Assembly (NCBI RefSeq): GCF_013343235.1
Contig: NZ_CP040094.1
Coordinates: 3,224,501-3,288,500 of the forward strand
Reading direction: 5' to 3'
From: Nostoc sp. TCL240-02
GTDB lineage: Bacteria > Cyanobacteriota > Cyanobacteriia > Cyanobacteriales > Nostocaceae
Length of the DNA stretch: 64,000 nucleotides
Position 1 is the stretch's first letter; every line of letters starts with the position of its first letter. This document shows, piece by piece, positions 10,895-19,599 of this stretch. A program made the position numbers and the translations under genes. The notes below the pieces were generated by a model that had not been told where the DNA came from, did no database searches, and worked only from the letters and a program-made list of their open reading frames with translations.

Positions 10895-11194
10895 TTAGTT
10901 GGATTCCTCAAAAAGAGATGGAAAGTTACGGCGACCGCTTACAACCCGTAGAATTTCGATACCATTATCTAATACTCTGTAGAAAACGATATAGCCTTGC
11001 AAGGATATACCTCGGAGGTCTGGACGAATTTTTGCGTAACTTTTACCACTGTTTGGAAAGGCAACAAGCTGTTGGCACTTGCGGTTGAATTCACTGAAAA
11101 ATCGCTCTCCTGCTTCAACGCTAGTTTCAGCAAAGTAGTCGGCAATTTCATTGATATCTCGGCTGGCAAGAATGTTGATGACGTAGCGACTCAT
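10895..11194 (-). CDS. ParE/RelE-superfamily toxin
   Basis: A 99-residue small basic protein with the ParE fold signature: SRDINEIADYFAE (N-terminal helix), RFFSEFNRKCQQL, FPNSGKSY, LRGISLQGYIVFYRV and ILRVVSGRRNF. It matches the length and order of type II toxins. The start overlaps the end of the antitoxin gene by 4 bases (ATGA), the usual antitoxin-toxin coupling. ParE toxins poison DNA gyrase, RelE toxins cleave mRNA; the target here is not determined. The pair appears intact. Confidence 0.85.
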   Translation of the reverse strand: MSRYVINILASRDINEIADYFAETSVEAGERFFSEFNRKCQQLVAFPNSGKSYAKIRPDLRGISLQGYIVFYRVLDNGIEILRVVSGRRNFPSLFEESN

Positions 11195-11457
11195 GCTTGC
11201 GCCTGATGTCCTTGTCGAAACCGCTTTAGAATTTGGTTTACGAATGTCTCGCCATCAATAGGTGGCGTTTTGTCTGAAGCTAAAATCGCCGCATCAATTT
11301 TTTCTCGCACATCCTCAACCCATTCAGCATCGGCGCGATCGTATTCATCAAGCAACCGTAAGGCGATTTCAAGGGCTTCTTCTGCGGAGCGATATTTCCC
11401 AGCCTGGAGCTTGGTTTGAATAAAGCGTTCTTGATCGGGTGTGAGACTTATGCTCAT
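11191..11457 (-). CDS. ParD-like type II antitoxin
   Basis: An 88-residue protein upstream of, and overlapping, the ParE-like toxin gene. The N-terminal SISLTPDQERFIQTKLQAGK fits a ribbon-helix-helix DNA-binding fold, with SAEEALEIALRLLDEYDRADAEW typical of ParD-type antitoxins. The C-terminal tail probably wraps the toxin. The pair is expected to autoregulate its promoter in 11458-11595; no operator palindrome was obvious there. Confidence 0.82.
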   Translation of the reverse strand: MSISLTPDQERFIQTKLQAGKYRSAEEALEIALRLLDEYDRADAEWVEDVREKIDAAILASDKTPPIDGETFVNQILKRFRQGHQAQA

Positions 11458-11595: not shown

Positions 11596-12183
11596 TCAAA
11601 CTTTACGCTGTAACCAAGCAAATACTTCATTAACAGAGAGCGTCAAATTCAAATTTTCTAACACTGGTAATATATCCTGTCCTGCTAACAAATCTGGTAA
11701 AGAATTAGGCTGATAAACTAAAATACAGCGTTCACTTGGATCAACCAACCATCCTAGCTGACTGCCATTTCTCAAATAGTGTAAAATATTGCCAGTTACT
11801 TTCGTTTGACTTTGAGCAGGGGAAAGAATTTCGATGATCCAAGGGGGTGCAAAATCAATCCCACTGCTAATAATGTCACCGCTCTCATCCAGTGGTATTT
11901 GATTGGTAGAGATCACAACCACATCAGGAACTACTGAACGATTACCGCAGGTACAGCGTAATTCAGGAAAAGCTTTGTAGTTACTGCCCAACGCATCAAT
12001 TACTGCAACCAAACGTTTTTGCAATAAACTGTGTTTAGCCCCTCCCATAGGTTTCTGAATTGCCTCTCCGTTGATATATTCCCAAGCTGGTGACTCTTCA
12101 ATATATGGAAGTTTTAAGAACTCTTTTAAAGTCGCGCTTTCTGGAACTGTAATTTTTCCTTGCGTCAACCCAATATTTTTCAT
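11596..12183 (-). CDS. Uma2 family (DUF820) putative endonuclease
   Basis: A 195-residue Uma2/DUF820 protein of the PD-(D/E)XK superfamily fold, a family greatly expanded in cyanobacteria. Visible family marks are LKEFLKLPYIEESPAWEYING (start, substrate-like loop), VVPDVVVIST (catalytic Asp region), PPWIIEILSPAQS (Glu before Ser-Pro) and LGWLVDPSERCILVY. Function is not established for most members. It lies between a toxin-antitoxin pair and a broken antitoxin gene in the accessory island. A second Uma2 gene is at 57712-58287. Confidence 0.85.
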   Translation of the reverse strand: MKNIGLTQGKITVPESATLKEFLKLPYIEESPAWEYINGEAIQKPMGGAKHSLLQKRLVAVIDALGSNYKAFPELRCTCGNRSVVPDVVVISTNQIPLDESGDIISSGIDFAPPWIIEILSPAQSQTKVTGNILHYLRNGSQLGWLVDPSERCILVYQPNSLPDLLAGQDILPVLENLNLTLSVNEVFAWLQRKV

Positions 12184-12562: not shown

Positions 12563-12960
12563 TCACACCAAGCCTTCACGCTCAAGAACCATACGAACAT
12601 CCTCAAAACAAGCTTTAATGTTCCCGCATGGAAAGTTAATATAACCAAGTCCATCAACATTGGAAAAGTTTTCACAGCCTTCTTCTAAAAGGAGAATTGC
12701 GCGTGTGAAACCCAAGCGTCCTTGAAAAAGACCTGCTTCATGTATAACATTCATTCTTGCACGGAGCTTCAGATCACTTTGTTCATCTTCACCAGTCATT
12801 ATCAAAAATGCGATCGCTGCACTATCCAGCATCTGGGATAAGCGCACAGTATTATTGATTCCAGCAATTGGAAGCCGATTGAATTCATCCCAAGGTAGTT
12901 TTAATCGCTCACTGATAAAGTCTTTGAGATCCCTCCATAACGGTGAGTGCCCGTGTCCAA
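12563..12960 (-). pseudogene. 3' part of a split TIR-like nucleotide-binding protein gene
   Basis: This minus-strand frame encodes the TIR-like domain of a predicted nucleotide-binding protein (the family also used as TIR effector domain in CBASS Cap12/Pycsar proteins). It runs IGHGHSPLWRDL, ISERLKLPWDEFNRLPIAG, MLDSAAIAFLIMTGEDEQ, LRARMNVIHEAGLFQGRLGF and ends VLEREGLV. The block LRARxNVIxExGLFxGxLG is the family hallmark. The frame enters directly from the IS630-type element at 12961. Joining base 12960 to 16969 gives ...GTHVFIGHGHSP... in frame, so this is the C-terminal third of a 372-residue protein whose 5' part is at 16969-17689. Confidence 0.82.
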
Positions 12961-13993
12961 TATAGCGGTTATCAGTCTTGTGAGGTACAGTAGCAGCAGT
13001 GAGTAAACCAACCCAGCAAATTCTCTATTGTCACTTCTGCGAATGCCGTATCTAATGCCTGGAGTAAATCAGGGTATGTCCTTGCACCGATGCGACGGAG
13101 AATGTTCTTAATCTTGGACCAACAATTCTCAATCGGTGAAAAATCGGGAGAATAGGGGGGGAGATAAATGAGATGAGCGCCAGCAGCGATGAGCAAAGCT
13201 TCAAGTTCATCACTTTTATGGATTGAGCAGTTATCCATGATCACCACTGCACCAGGCCAAAGTTTGGGTACGAGCTTTTGGGCGATGAAGGCATCAAAAG
13301 TCAAAGCATCGATAGAACCTAAGCCACTCCATTGGGTGAGCAGTCCTTTCAAGCTAATTGCACCAATTACCGAGACATTTTTCCCTTTGCGGTTGGGCTT
13401 TTGAGCATAGCCTGAAGGCCAGGCAAGGCGCGGGCACATTTGCGGATGAAGGACAGATTAACTCCCGATTCATCTAAGAAAATCAGCTCTTCGACGGGTA
13501 TCCCCCTCAAGAGTTTCCAGTACTCAAATCGGGCTAGTTGGACTTCATCACTACCTTTTTTTGTGAGGTGGAGACTTTTTTTTTGAGGTTGAGGTGAAGT
13601 TTCCAGCGAACCATCCGATTCACCGTAGCTACCCCAATTAAGACCTCTGTTTTCTCGTAAAGTCGTTCCCGCAATTCGCTTAACGTCGCATCGGGCTGTG
13701 CTATGACGAGTTGGCGCAGGATTTCTAACTGTTCAGCATTCAACTTTGTTGCTGTCTGCTCAGTCCGCACCTTGGGGCCTATCATCCCCAATTCTCGATG
13801 GCGTTTGAGTAAATTTTGCACAAAACTTAAGGTGACACCAAAGTTTTTAGCCAGTTTTCGTTGGGAAATGTCACCGCAGGCATAAGCATCAACTATTTTT
13901 TGACGCAAGTCGAGAGAGTAGGCTTTCATCACCACCAATTATCAGTAGAATTGCTCTCTCCTACTGTACTGAAGTAGACTGATAACCACTATA
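12961..13993 (-). mobile_element. IS630-type insertion sequence
   Basis: A 1.03-kb element bounded by imperfect inverted repeats: left TAGCGGTTATCAGTCTTG, right (read inward) TAGTGGTTATCAGTCTAC. TA dinucleotides stand on both outer sides, as expected from the TA target of the IS630/Tc1-mariner group. It interrupts the TIR-like gene. Its right end touches the 4-bp target duplication of the IS701-type element, so which of the two arrived first cannot be decided from the junctions. Confidence 0.85.
12972..13938 (-). pseudogene. IS630-type transposase, frameshifted
   Basis: The N-terminal part (13938 to about 13570) carries the helix-turn-helix half (KAYSLDLRQKIVDAYACGD, SQRKLAKNFGVTLSFVQNLL). 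The C-terminal part has the DDE domain (VVIMDNCSIHKSDELE, LPPYSPDFSPIENCWSKIK). The frame changes at an A9 run near 13572-13580, where a programmed shift is conceivable since many IS630 elements use one. It changes again near 13415-13440 (around FIRKCARAL/AWPSGYAQKP), which is not expected. The copy is probably inactive. Confidence 0.75.
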
Positions 13994-14994
13994 ACCCTCT
14001 TCTGTCACTTTCCGAGTATTCTGAATAAAAGGATTAAAAGAAAAAACTCTCTTCAGGTAAGCAGGGCAATGGATGTAGAATTACAAATCCTAAAACATTT
14101 GGCAAGAGATGCCCAGCCAACAGTTGCGATCATAGATGAATATTGTGCAGAGTATAAAGACCTGTTCAAAGAAGTAAGAAATTATGAATGCTTCAAATAT
14201 TTACATTTAGGGATAATTGCACCAATAAAAAGAAAATCATTACCAGAAATAGCCAAAGTAGTAAGTATAAACTCGGCACAGTCATTACATCATTTCATAG
14301 CCTATTCAGATTGGTCAGCAAATAAATTAAAGAGCCGAAGATTAGATAAATTAAAGAAAGCATTAAATAGTCAGGCGATAACCGTAGTAATAGATGAAAC
14401 TGGAGATAGGAAAAAAGGTAAAAAGACAGATTATGTTGCAAGACAATATCTAGGGAGTGTAGGAAAAATAGATAATGGAATAGTATCAGTCAATGCTTAT
14501 GGAGTTTATGAAAATGTAACATTTCCATTAAGTTTCAAAGTATTTAAACCGAAAGGGACGCTCAAATCAGGAGATAAATATAAAACCAAAATAGAGTTAG
14601 CGTCAGAAATTATTACAGAATTAATAAATGAGGGGTTTAATATTGAATTAGTATTAGCCGATAGTTTATATGGTGAAAGTAGCAAATTCATCAAAAAGCT
14701 CAATGAATATGAATTAGCTTATGTTGTAGCAATTAGAAGTAATCACGGAGTCTGGCTACCAGCTAATCAGAGCGTTAGAGCTAACAAGTGGTGCAAATTT
14801 GAGAGAACATTTAGTAATAAAAAATCCGAAATCAGATATATCCGAGAAATAATTTATGGTAAAAAAAGAGCCATAACTTACTGGGAAATAACTACTGATC
14901 CAGAAACAATGCCGGATAATTCCACTTCATTTGTCATGACGAATCTTCAAGGAAATCTCAAAAAAACTTTAGGCGATTTATATGGATTAAGAAC

Positions 14995-16499
14995 CTGACT
15001 TTTCCCGTTAAGTCTCTTTTGCAAGCTGCCAACCCTCACAGAGGTCGTGTAATTTTAACCAACCTCGCCACAGTACCTGGATACCAATAGGTGTTTTACT
15101 TCGATGTTCTAAGTAGCCGCCAAGACGAGCTACAGCTTCAACAGCCCAGCTAACTGTTAGCACTTTGGGGAGTTTGGGAGACTTAGCTTTTAAAATCTTG
15201 AGTTCAAGGGGATTAAGAATTTCAATGGCAGGGGCTAAGGGCTGAGTGCGGTGGAGATAAGTTAAGCGCAAAAGCTCAACAGCTATTACGCTAAAAAAAC
15301 CAATGAGGGTCTTCATCCCATCAGCAGCAAGCCTATATTTTTCTACCTGACATCCAGACTTAAAAATTTTATGGTATTCTTCAACACGCCAACGATAAGT
15401 ATACCAGCGTAAAACTGTAGAAGCCATCTGGACATCTGCAATAACTTCCGTAGTCAACAACATCCACTCCACAAGTGTTTCACCATCTGGGCAATCAATC
15501 TCAGTGGCATAAACAGCATATACGGGTAGAGGCTCACGGTTATCAAAACGATAGGGAGTACGGAGATTGACCGGACAAAATCGCACAGCCAGCTTGGTTT
15601 TACGGGCAGAACGCTGTCCAGTCTGGGGTAATTCGATTTCCTGTTCAAAACTGGTAGGTTGTGCAAGGAGTTTTGACCAAAGACGCTCGCTCTCGGAATC
15701 TAAACTGCGGTTATGAGCCGCGCGAATAAGAACTCCGGTGTGCTGGAGTTGGCGAACTTTATCGAAAACTTCTGTGATATCACCTTCTCGGTCGAAAACA
15801 TGAATCACTTGCGTGTGCTTACTCACAAGGTTTTCTATAGTGGTGAGCGCTTCTACCCACCTGTAAGATTCTTTCTGTTCAAAGGGACGGTTTCGGGCTT
15901 CTTTACGTGCTGCTGCTTGCCGTTTTTTCTTCTGTGTTGGAGTTTCATCTTTTGGCGGTTTCTGTTTTGCTTCTCGATTCCAAAGTTTTTGCCACAACAG
16001 ACCAAGGGACTGGCGCTTTGTCCGATTCTATGGCTAAAGCACTGTGTAATATTAAACCGTTACCTCCCTTACCAATTGGGCCGTAACCTTCTTTTTTAGC
16101 CTCAATACTGCCATAATCAAAAAAAGTCGTGTCTCCAACACACAGCACTACGTCGCACTCTGCAACAGTTTCCGCAGTCATTTGGCAATGCGGCTCAATC
16201 ACGCTGGGAAATTGCACTTTTGGATTAGCAAAAACTCATAAGCCCTTTTAAGTACGGTTCCATTACTGAAAACTTCCGACAGCGCTTTGCCGAATCCCAA
16301 ACTTAGAGCATACCCGATTGACATTGCACGCTCATTCAATCGGCGATCGCCTAGAGATATGGTTGCAAAATTCTTTTCCCACCAGTCCAGCATTGCTTGT
16401 TACCTTTAGCACCCAATTTCAATTACTGTACCGTATTTGCTGTGCTGTTTCTTAAACCCTTTGCCAGCAAGTCTTTCAAGACTTAACGGGAAAAGTCAG
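14995..16499 (-). mobile_element. IS4-family (IS50/Tn5-like) insertion sequence, copy 1
   Basis: A 1505-bp element with perfect terminal repeats beginning CTGACTTTTCCCGTTAAG at both ends and a 9-bp target duplication ATTAAGAAC (14986-14994 and 16500-16508). The terminal CTGACT and the 9-bp duplication agree with the IS50/Tn5 branch of IS4. The same element, of identical length, is at 55940-57444 in the opposite orientation. Confidence 0.95.
15008..16393 (-). pseudogene. IS4-family transposase, copy 1, frameshifted twice
   Basis: The Tn5-like transposase begins MLDWWEKNFATISLGDRRLN (DNA-binding region), contains the DDE residues (CVGDTTFFDYGS; HVFDREGD) and the Y-R-E-K motif YRWRVEEYHKIFKSGCQVEK. 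The frame breaks in the T5 run of GAGTTTTTGCTAATCC (about 16227-16240), a change shared with copy 2, and again near 16012-16018 where copy 1 has GACAAAGCGCC against GACAAAGGCC in copy 2. The last 330 codons are open. Confidence 0.85.
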
Positions 16500-16968
16500 A
16501 TTAAGAACCTGGGTAGAATATGGGTTTCGACAATGTAAACAGGAACTCGGCTGGACAGATTATCGCTTGACAAATTTTCAACATATAGAGAGATGGTGGG
16601 AAATTATTTTTTGTGTTTACACAATGATTAGTCTAAATTCCCCAGCCTTTTTAGCCTTAAATCAATCTCTTCAAATTGAAACTGAGGTGATAGGTACTAG
16701 TTATGTTAATTGTGTAGATTTTTCTCATCATCAACAATGGAATCATAATTCTGGATGGAAGAATACTCTTAATAATCTTCGTTTAATTGTCCAACCTCTT
16801 TTACTATTTTGGCTGATTTATCCCTGGTTAGATATTTTTCCAAATTCTCATTTATTGCTAGGATTTAATCATTTAATTTGTGCCATGAACCAATTTAAAC
16901 CCTTTTTTGCTTCTGGATGATTTCACTTATTTACTACTTGCTTATCTCGGAGAGTGACAGAAGAGGGA

Positions 16969-17689
16969 TAAAGACATGTGTTCCTGGTTGAGATGAGTAC
17001 ATATAAATGCGAGATTTATTGGTTAAGTGTAATGCTAGCCGATTTGCTATTTTCTTTAAACTTTCTGCTACTGTAACAGGCGATTGAACAGACAATAACT
17101 GTGCCTGAAGATAAATATGCGGCGGGGTTTGAAGTCCAGACTGAAAAGCAAGCATGTCAAGTGAAAAAAACTGTTTTGGTCGAAGATAATCAACAAACTG
17201 CTGTACAGATGATGTTTGACATTGCTCAACTTCTTTTTTTAGCCGATCCAGGTATGCGTCTTCTCCGCTAGCAAGGCAAGAAAAAATTATCGATATTAAT
17301 TCTTCTCGTAAATCAGAAATCTCTTCTTTTGCATAATTGGCAAGTTCGTTTAGTTGCTCTAATGAGAGGCTAGCTGTGTTTGATTTTAAAGTCTTATACA
17401 AAGAATCGAAGTCATATTCACACCACTCACCCTTAGTATCGTTGGAAAATCTGTTTTGGAGTCCCCATTCTTGACTAAATCGTGCACCGGGCGGAACTGG
17501 TTGAAGTTGGTTGTAATAGACACGGGAATGATATCCAAGCCATGAGCCAGACCAGGATTTTGCTGCCTGGTTTGCTGCTTCTTGCAATGCTTTTATTGAC
17601 TCAGCTACCTCAGAAGATTCAAATTGTGCAACGATTGTAGAACAAATGGATTTGATACGATCAAGAGAATCACGGAAGTCATCCATCAA
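16969..17689 (-). pseudogene. 5' part of a split TIR-like nucleotide-binding protein gene
   Basis: The N-terminal 240 residues of the interrupted protein, from ATG 17689 (MMDDFRDSLDRIKSICSTIV). This part is mostly helical with long acidic stretches (SLEQLNELANYAKEEISDLREE) and has no family I can name. It ends NKSRIYMYSSQPGTHVFI, where the TIR-like domain should begin. The present frame runs a further ten codons into the IS701-type end (PLLSLSEISK, stop at 16934), so a truncated 251-residue protein lacking the TIR-like domain could still be made. The 12563-12960 piece is the missing C-terminus. Confidence 0.8.
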
Positions 17690-17808: not shown

Positions 17809-19599
17809 TTACCGTTTCGCCAACTTCTTCGACATCTTCCGCAGGCGAATAGATTGGGGTGTAACTTCCACTAATTCATCGGGGCCAATGTATTCCAAAG
17901 CACGCTCTAGGCTCATGTCTATCGGTGCTTGCAGTTGCACTAGTTCATCGCCACCAGCAGCGCGGTGGTTGGTTAACTGCTTGGTCTTACAGATATTTAG
18001 TTCCAAATCTTGGGGACGATTGTGTTCGCCGACAATCATGCCTCTGTAAACCTTTGTACCAGGAACAATAAAGAATGCTCCTCTATCTTCGGCGTTTCTC
18101 ATGGCGTAGAAGGTAGAAACACCTTCTTCAAATGAGATTAAAACGCCTTTGTTACGGGCTTCAATATCACCACTGAGTTGACGGTAATCTAAAAAGCTGT
18201 GGTTCATGATGCCTTCACCACGAGTCATCCGCATGAATTCACCCCGGAAACCAATCAAACCACGGGCAGGAATGACAAACTCTAACTGGGTGCGATCGCC
18301 ACTACCTGGTTGCATATCTTGCATTTCGCCTTTGCGTTGTCCCAGGCGTTCGATGCAGCTACCCACAGCATCAACAGGAATGTCTAACACCAAAAGTTCA
18401 TAAGGTTCGCAAGGATGTCCATTGACTTCGCGGTAAATTACCTGTGGCTGAGATACCTGAAACTCGAAGCCTTCCCGGCGCATGGTTTCAATTAAGATAC
18501 CCAGGTGGAGTTCTCCACGACCGGAAACGAGGAATTTATCGGGAGAATCGGTTTCTTCGACACGCAAAGCAACGTTGGTTTCGAGTTCGCGGAATAGGCG
18601 ATCGCGCACTTGTCTTGATGTCACCAACTTACCTTCTTGACCAGCAAAGGGCGAATCATTCACCCAGAAGGTCATTTGCAAGGTTGGTTCATCCACTTTA
18701 ATTAGTGGTAAAGCTTGGGGTTCGTTGGGGTCAGTAATCGTTTCCCCAATGTAAGCATCAGCGAAACCAGCCACCGCCACAATATAACCTGCGGTTGCTT
18801 CTTCCAGGTCTACGCGCTTGAGTCCTTCAAAGCCCATCAGCTTGGTAATTTTACCTTTGACAATGGTGCCGTTTTCTGTAACCAAAGCTGCTTGTTGTCC
18901 TGAACGGATAGTACCGTTGTGAATTCTACCAATCACAATCCGTCCCAGATATTCCGAATAATCTAGGGTTGTGACTTGTAATTGCAGAGGCTTGTTGCGA
19001 TCGCCTACTGGCGATGGAACGTGTTTCAAAATCGCATTAAACAAAGGTTGCATGTCTACCGATTCTGCTTCTAAAGTTTCCTTAGCAAAACCTCCCATCC
19101 CGGAAGCAAACAGATAAGGAAAATCACACTGGTCTTCATCTGCCCCTAATTCCAAGAACAGATCCAATACTTTATCAACAGCAACGTGGGGGTCAGCTTG
19201 TCCGCGATCGATTTTGTTGATTACAACGATGGGGCGTAGCCCTTTTTCTAAAGCTTTTTTCAGAACAAAGCGTGTTTGGGGCATGGGGCCTTCATTGGCA
19301 TCGACAATCAGAAGACATCCATCAACCATGCCGAGTACACGTTCAACTTCGCCACCAAAGTCAGCGTGTCCAGGAGTATCAACAATATTAATTAGTGTTT
19401 CTTTGTAGCGAACTGCTGTATTTTTGGACAGGATAGTAATACCCCGTTCCCGTTCTAGGGCGTTGGAGTCCATAACGCAATCCGGAACGTCTTCGCCTTC
19501 GCGGAAAATGCCGGATTGTTTGAGGAGTGCGTCAACCAGCGTGGTTTTGCCGTGGTCAACGTGGGCGATAATGGCGACGTTGCGAATTGGGAGCGTCAT
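17809..19599 (-). CDS. typA: translational GTPase TypA/BipA
   Basis: A 596-residue ribosome-associated GTPase of the EF-G family. G motifs are clear: [15 protein letters not shown] (P-loop, near residue 12), [13 protein letters not shown] (switch I), [17 protein letters not shown] (about 73-89), [10 protein letters not shown]. Domain II, an EF-G domain V-like region and the TypA-specific C-terminal domain ([15 protein letters not shown]) follow in normal order and length. TypA acts in ribosome assembly and stress adaptation. It is a single gene with its own terminator, next to the end of the accessory island. Confidence 0.97.

Follow-up and report, generated by a model that had tools for sequence, protein, structure and literature searches.

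What was the gene that now lies in two pieces on either side of a block of insertion sequences (ISs) in the cyanobacterium Nostoc sp. TCL240-02, and what did it do before it was broken? The pieces fall between positions 12563 and 17689 of a 64,000-nucleotide stretch of this genome, which we call the window (contig NZ_CP040094.1, positions 3,224,501 to 3,288,500 of the forward strand; coordinates are counted from its first letter). An original prediction, made from the letters alone, took them for the halves of a stand-alone gene with a helical N-terminal domain and a TIR-like C-terminus. Our analysis points, with a probability of roughly 75%, to an IS-inactivated copy of a one-gene, two-domain abortive-infection protein, in which one sensor is combined with exchangeable effectors.

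The two minus-strand pieces, 17686-16968 and 12959-12563, fuse at the sequence ATAA; the resulting frame is free of stops and encodes 371 residues, starting at the ATG at 17686. The fusion joins base 12959 to base 16968 with one copy of ATAA retained, which gives 372 codons counting the stop, and across the junction the frame reads GTHVFIGHGHSPLWRDL. Both the computed rejoining and the existence of intact orthologues bear out the one-frame, 372-codon prediction and its junction, and the predicted coordinates were correct to within a few bases. The TIR residues R309, N311 and E315 discussed below are numbered after P0002, the intact orthologue from Desmonostoc muscorum FACHB-395. The remnants, together with the neighbour that marks the locus, are as follows.

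16968..17686, minus strand: N-terminal piece, with the full helical N-domain (residues 1 to about 235) and the first TIR-like strand (GTHVFI); 80% identity to intact P0002.
16934..17689, minus strand: surviving N-terminal open reading frame (ORF), 251 aa from TTG 17689 or 250 aa from ATG 17686; N-domain plus a nine-residue tail from the IS701 end.
12563..12959, minus strand: C-terminal piece, with most of the TIR-like domain (PF10137), including the aligned R, N and catalytic E.
12563..12847, minus strand: surviving C-terminal ORF, 94 aa with a GTG start, without the first part of the TIR fold.
17809..19599, minus strand: bipA/typA GTPase gene, upstream of the broken gene; as a conserved neighbour it identifies the locus in L002 and L003.

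Intact orthologues of 372 aa, with no break over the insertion site, were found in Desmonostoc muscorum FACHB-395 (L002) and in the metagenome-assembled genome of Nostoc desertorum CM1-VF14 (L003). Because both exist, a chance origin of the joined frame is excluded. Both stand directly after bipA, as in the window, and the gene is present in 3 of 217 Nostocaceae genomes, namely this one and two of the same genus; among 144 neighbours scanned across the wider family BipA_C was found in two. The joined frame differs from L002 by 106 bases over 371 codons, and its ratio of nonsynonymous to synonymous substitution rates (dN/dS), 0.34, is close to the 0.33 of the intact pair; judged by these rates, therefore, the broken copy was under normal constraint until recently. 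Divergence from L003 is far greater in the N half (dS 0.31) than in the C half (0.06), and of the 41 residues changed in the broken copy alone, 39 fall in the N half; this suggests that the gene is a mosaic, that its sensor half changed faster, or both. The window thereby offers a naturally occurring knock-out at a fixed locus for comparison with two sister genomes that kept the gene intact.

Neither remnant contains a complete effector or a whole TIR domain, and the broken gene is therefore dead as a killer in this strain. The N-terminal ORF enters the IS701 end for nine codons and then stops, and the catalytic Glu sits apart from it in the detached C-terminal piece, which is also the only match to PF10137 in the genome. 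The expectation that the locus is dead or cut down to its N-terminal 240 residues therefore stands.

The intact arrangement proved to be that of a family. Searching proteins with the N half brought up 693 matches; among the 120 of these that were listed, 112 carry PF10137 and eight are N-only pieces, including the window's own, and rarer architectures may be hidden among the remainder. From GTDB contigs, in which 205 places were confirmed, the best 80 were fetched, and both halves occupy one ORF in 80 of 80, in part because TIR-half patterns were used in choosing them. Intact homologues with the N-plus-TIR arrangement, for which the original prediction had proposed a search, are thus common among the listed matches, and neither an absence of such homologues nor halves that always form separate genes, the two outcomes against which it had been set, occurred. 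The tree of the 80 proteins spans 13 named phyla (four rows are without a phylum name) and requires 21 phylum changes against a minimum of 12, with labels more clustered than in shuffles (mean 26.6 changes); transfer between phyla is indicated by the tree, short of proof. The family is rare and patchy: members occur in 4 of 386 sampled genomes of the phylum and in 2 of 289, 1 of 274, 1 of 199, 1 of 119 and 2 of 235 in other groups; the seed genome is part of every one of these counts. We found no description of an N-domain and TIR two-domain family in a full-text literature search, the coverage of which leaves out most subscription journals.

Several of its members lie on mobile elements. Among 17 loci on viral contigs, seven encode the N-domain with the TIR (one is cut by the contig end) and ten the TIR half only, and in the five that were examined the adjoining phage genes encode, respectively, an integrase and RecT; a portal and terminase; an integrase; DnaB, NinG and an endolysin; and a replication protein. 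Viral scans with the N-domain alone confirmed no locus, their search patterns being too narrow, since another scan did find N-domain carriers. Plasmid matches came from seven records, five of them with at least 80% coverage. A DNA search of 5,426 E. coli genomes with one relative gave one place, in the O55:H7 strain DEC5E, where a full-length protein with PF10137 adjoins two filamentous-phage genes, one of the Zot family and one for II/X replication. An alphaproteobacterial TIR protein (L096) has a degenerate N half without the insert described below.

Three records deserve separate mention. The Rhizobium leguminosarum plasmid pRLb1, one of the seven plasmid records, carries an apparently broken member (L084, 9998-11127) in three matching pieces annotated as two ORFs. 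Synechocystis salina P0007 (L091, 1501-2319) has an N-only ORF of 272 aa, whose tail is unrelated and which stops 156 bases short of the contig end; an insertion may have broken this copy too. In the Microcystis phage vB_MaeS-yong1 (L085, 2360-4282) a TIR-like gene with a different N-part is seemingly cut by a DDE transposase gene, and its C fragment is annotated as 'CMP/hydroxymethyl hydrolase'.

The C half is indeed TIR-like, as first proposed: the joined protein matches PF10137 (CAP12/Pycsar TIR) with E 3e-18 and 66.4 bits against a gathering cut-off of 24.7, and the cut-off is passed by 8 of 8 TIR-variant relatives scanned. In SfSTING, R78, N80 and the catalytic E84 are residues of the NAD pocket and NADase activity, and D110 from the partner protomer completes the pocket (PMC9402430). 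In a profile alignment the first three correspond to R309, N311 and E315 (the SfSTING chain number is the paper's number plus 8 at all three), which are invariant in 112 of 112 proteins and in all 80 fetched loci, and whose equivalents all lie in the window's C-terminal piece. All seven Foldseek matches of the full-length model at E<=0.001 are TIR-STING chains. The C half is likely, from its conserved residues, to have NADase activity.

The N half, about 235 residues, has no Pfam family above cut-off, in agreement with the earlier description of a helical domain without a name. It is modelled as a helical bundle with a predicted local distance difference test score (pLDDT) of 90.7, comprising four long helices (2-23, 25-44, 109-139 and 189-231) and two inserts, one of which carries the motif SWSGSWLGYHSRVYY...PPGARFS.EWG. 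Comparison of this model with solved and viral folds gave none that stood out. The domain's signature is approximately SWSG-W...Y-Y/F...PP...G-W...G...PPH, and S48, W88, D178 and H191 are invariant in 80 of 80 loci.

A second effector emerged from an N-domain profile search of cyanobacterial genomes, which returned a 386-aa protein (E 1.1e-14) with a C half belonging to REase_DpnII-MboI, PF18742 (E 1.9e-56), a PD-(D/E)XK nuclease. A protein search with the N part of this nuclease variant gave 22 proteins, all with PF18742, and a profile search for such variants gave 25, of which 22 have PF18742 and three are short pieces; those of known origin are cyanobacterial. The nuclease motif D...ExK (D302, E313, K315) is kept in 17 of 17, and D178 of the N half, by reading of the profile-profile alignment, is not kept. 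The N-domains of TIR and nuclease variants align over 215 columns with 18% identity (hhalign profile-profile, 99.0%, E 3e-18). The nuclease-variant N profile matches 38 of 38 TIR-variant N-domains at E<1e-3, and also seven of eight N-bearing ORFs from viral contigs and the E. coli locus; with the motif block removed it still matches 26 of the 38, with a real median of 21.4 bits against 8.9 bits for the best of 1900 shuffles. Judged by these sequence comparisons, one N-domain heads both TIR and PF18742 nuclease proteins, an association newly found here, and because the nuclease takes the place of the TIR behind the same N-domain, the sensor would be modular. A viral search with the nuclease query gave 12 loci, none of them with the N-domain. 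No third effector was seen among the opened matches of scans with a combined profile (243, 119 and 235 genomes) and with the TIR-variant profile (386, 289, 274 and 199 genomes), which were TIR, PF18742 or N-only proteins or came from seed genomes. One nuclease variant lies in a cyanobacterial island (L102, 424-11255) together with DrmA, a class II Argonaute and a Cas4-like nuclease within 11 kb.

TIR effectors of bacterial immunity are usually interpreted through known activators, that is, cyclic nucleotides, Thoeris or Argonautes. In this family no neighbour cluster recurs in more than 4 of the 80 loci, so that the claim of a stand-alone gene is upheld. In a scan of 144 neighbours, taken from 36 loci, any one PADLOC or Pfam family accounted for at most 3 (for PADLOC, among the 25 listed of 198 families; 61 of the 80 loci, with 244 neighbours, were eligible, and the ORF caller was crude). 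Similarly, no CD-NTase, cyclase or ThsA recurs as a partner gene in more than 4 of 80 loci, although no search was aimed at these. Because the family has no recurrent partner, the N-domain must hold the answer to how the protein is activated. We read it as a sensor joined to a killer, since the protein is solitary, its N half is variable and its enzymatic C half can be exchanged for a nuclease.

What we infer for the intact relatives is a defence role with a sensed trigger, clustering and NAD+ cleavage. The helical N-terminal domain would be the infection sensor and the C-terminal CAP12/Pycsar-type TIR the effector. A phage component, probably a protein, would bind the N-domain; this binding would cluster the TIRs, as in SpbK; and the clustered TIRs would consume NAD+ and thereby abort the infection. 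We give an even chance to a broader reading, in which the N-domain defines immune sensors of a new, stand-alone class that can be coupled to two or more killers in exchange, among them a TIR NADase and a PD-(D/E)XK nuclease. Such sensors would have spread across phyla, with tailed as well as filamentous prophages trading them as cargo genes against competitors. On that reading a single conserved feature of phages would be detected by the shared sensor, regardless of the killer attached to it. The swap of TIR and nuclease on one N-domain provides a clean test, in that a common phage trigger for both variants would mark the N-domain as the sensor, and with a single gene and intact members in cultured cyanobacteria a small test of the sensor role is possible.

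Several observations weigh against an interpretation as a two-part defence protein. The position aligned with SfSTING D110, counted off the profile alignment, is Asn in 111 of 112 proteins and in 80 of 80 loci, and the exact NADase chemistry may therefore differ. Confidence in the modelled TIR half is moderate (blocks of 55-86), with a predicted template modelling score (pTM) of 0.61. When the motif block is removed, 12 of the 38 N-domain comparisons miss E<1e-3. The nuclease variant from Cyanosarcina (L103) has, as read by eye, metabolic neighbours and no Argonaute or DrmA; an adjoining ORF is PIN-type and toxin-like, with no PADLOC match. Finally, the neighbour scans, which had no background control, gave no clear enrichment of defence genes, the PADLOC matches being scattered and including general families such as kinases.

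Another possibility, which we consider unlikely, is that the protein belongs to a cyclic-nucleotide system (CBASS or Pycsar) as an orphan effector, with a cyclase encoded elsewhere in the genome producing the nucleotide signal to which the N-domain binds. Its TIR does belong to the CAP12/Pycsar Pfam family; the PADLOC PycTIR profile matches the joined protein, in its TIR part only and weakly (E 3.9e-7), as do the TIR-effector profiles; and the near-invariant polar and aromatic residues of the insert (S48, W88, D178, H191) could form a ligand pocket. However, D178 is, as read from the alignment, not kept in the nuclease variants, and no Pfam match to a known signal-binding domain was obtained. 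CBASS and Pycsar pair a cyclase with their effector, unlike the solitary loci described above, and the Cap12 NCBIfam equivalog models reach 30.0 and 21.6 bits against a cut-off of 450. Because a recurrent partner gene is lacking and these models fall so far below cut-off, the sequences do not support membership of CBASS or Pycsar.

Somewhat less probable still is a housekeeping or stress protein that handles NAD, has no part in defence and is carried on mobile elements by coincidence. Ordinary metabolic genes are frequent among the neighbours; yet occurrence is very patchy, members are carried by prophages and plasmids, and the effector half has been exchanged for a restriction-type nuclease, all of which fit a housekeeping protein poorly. 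Least probable is that the surviving 250-residue N-terminal ORF is a kept and useful product, a free sensor or decoy, and not a relic: the N-domain is open and models well alone, the Synechocystis salina record also has an N-only ORF, and in comparison with L002 the N part has a dN/dS of 0.38, as compared with 0.32 within the intact pair. But that Synechocystis ORF, so near its contig end, may be another broken or cut copy, R177, at least 90% conserved, is Leu in the broken copy, and the 99-100% identity of the IS copies marks the break as recent, with little time for decay since.

An IS-inactivated two-domain protein thus remains our preferred reading, and the inactivation can be followed in the block itself. 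All three elements of the predicted block were located together with their target repeats.

12961-16971: interrupting block of three elements: IS630, a member of the IS701 family and, inserted within the latter, IS4.
12963..13991, minus strand: IS630-family element, flanked by TA at 12961-12962 and 13992-13993; its transposase occupies two frames (13534-13938 and 12972-13439).
13995..16967, plus strand: IS701-family element, split by IS4; inverted ends CCCTCTTCTGTCAC; ATAA at 13991-13994 and 16968-16971; N part of the transposase at 14069-14998.
14995..16499, minus strand: IS4-family element inside IS701; 9-bp repeats ATTAAGAAC at 14986-14994 and 16500-16508; ORF at 15008-15997.

The IS701-family assignment rests on NF033540 (202 bits, cut-off 150) and that of IS4 on NF033590 (270 bits, cut-off 160). 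The genome contains at least 35 IS630 copies at 99-100% identity, a lower bound since 40 of 100 candidates were scored. Fifteen of the 16 IS701 copies adjoin an IS630 edge (L119 does not), with contacts at both IS630 ends and in both orientations. A matching 4-bp repeat lies on either side of 13 of these 15 and overlaps the IS630 boundary (the IS630 terminal base plus TA); in L107 and L108 the 4-bp repeats are unmatched. The IS701-family element thus appears to home onto IS630 edges, a behaviour of which our literature search gave no obvious report. The window's own pair is compatible with both insertion orders. In all nine order-informative copies (L105, L109, L111-L117), though, IS630 came first and IS701 second, and these other copies therefore indicate that IS630 arrived first and broke the gene, and that the IS701 element then landed on its edge.

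Beside the broken gene, the window holds a ParDE-type toxin-antitoxin pair and a Uma2-family gene (10895-11457 and 11596-12183), the latter matching PADLOC PDC-S03 (E 9e-13); in L002 the same gap before the conserved flank contains toxin-antitoxin-like genes. Type I restriction specificity and methyltransferase genes lie at 207-2251.

How does the family compare with known systems? On the nuclease side, PADLOC Aga_Helical-REase, which is associated with class II Argonautes, resembles the nuclease variant in layout and length and matches its nuclease half (E 1e-30), and in one case a class II Argonaute with its Cas4-like nuclease is found at a distance of about 2.2 kb from the nuclease variant; the match, however, covers residues 237-374 only, outside the N-terminal half of the variant, and the TIR variants have no Argonaute link. 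Plasmid nucleases with PF18742 (IncX4) share the nuclease domain but are 265 aa long, with another N-terminus and no N-domain match. PF18742 plasmid nucleases (H11-H18, L149, L150; IncX4 among them) carry the annotation 'malate dehydrogenase', probably a propagated misannotation. On the TIR side, the profiles of the PADLOC candidate defence family PDC-S35, a name not met in the literature searched, align with the TIR half together with the last part of the N half (joined protein, E 6e-13). The joined protein covers positions 170-237 of 264 in its best profile, and P0040 covers 11-246 of 265; these profiles, 231-278 long, begin near residue 105 of P0040 and so are without the conserved insert.

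TIR-STING/Cap12 (SfSTING, PDB 7un8 and 9lmq) shares the Pfam family of the TIR and the three aligned, invariant NAD-pocket residues, and provides the best Foldseek matches. It differs in that the TIR is C-terminal in our family, where we found no STING domain and no recurrent partner gene, and where Asn occupies the D110 position. The nearest demonstrated mechanism is that of SpbK, from the Bacillus subtilis element ICEBs1, a smaller protein of 266 aa in which the N part takes up about 110 residues; the likeness is one of mechanism only. SpbK is likewise a single gene on a mobile element, with an N-terminal recognition domain and a C-terminal TIR, in which the phage portal docks on the N-domain and the TIRs cluster (PMC12847820).

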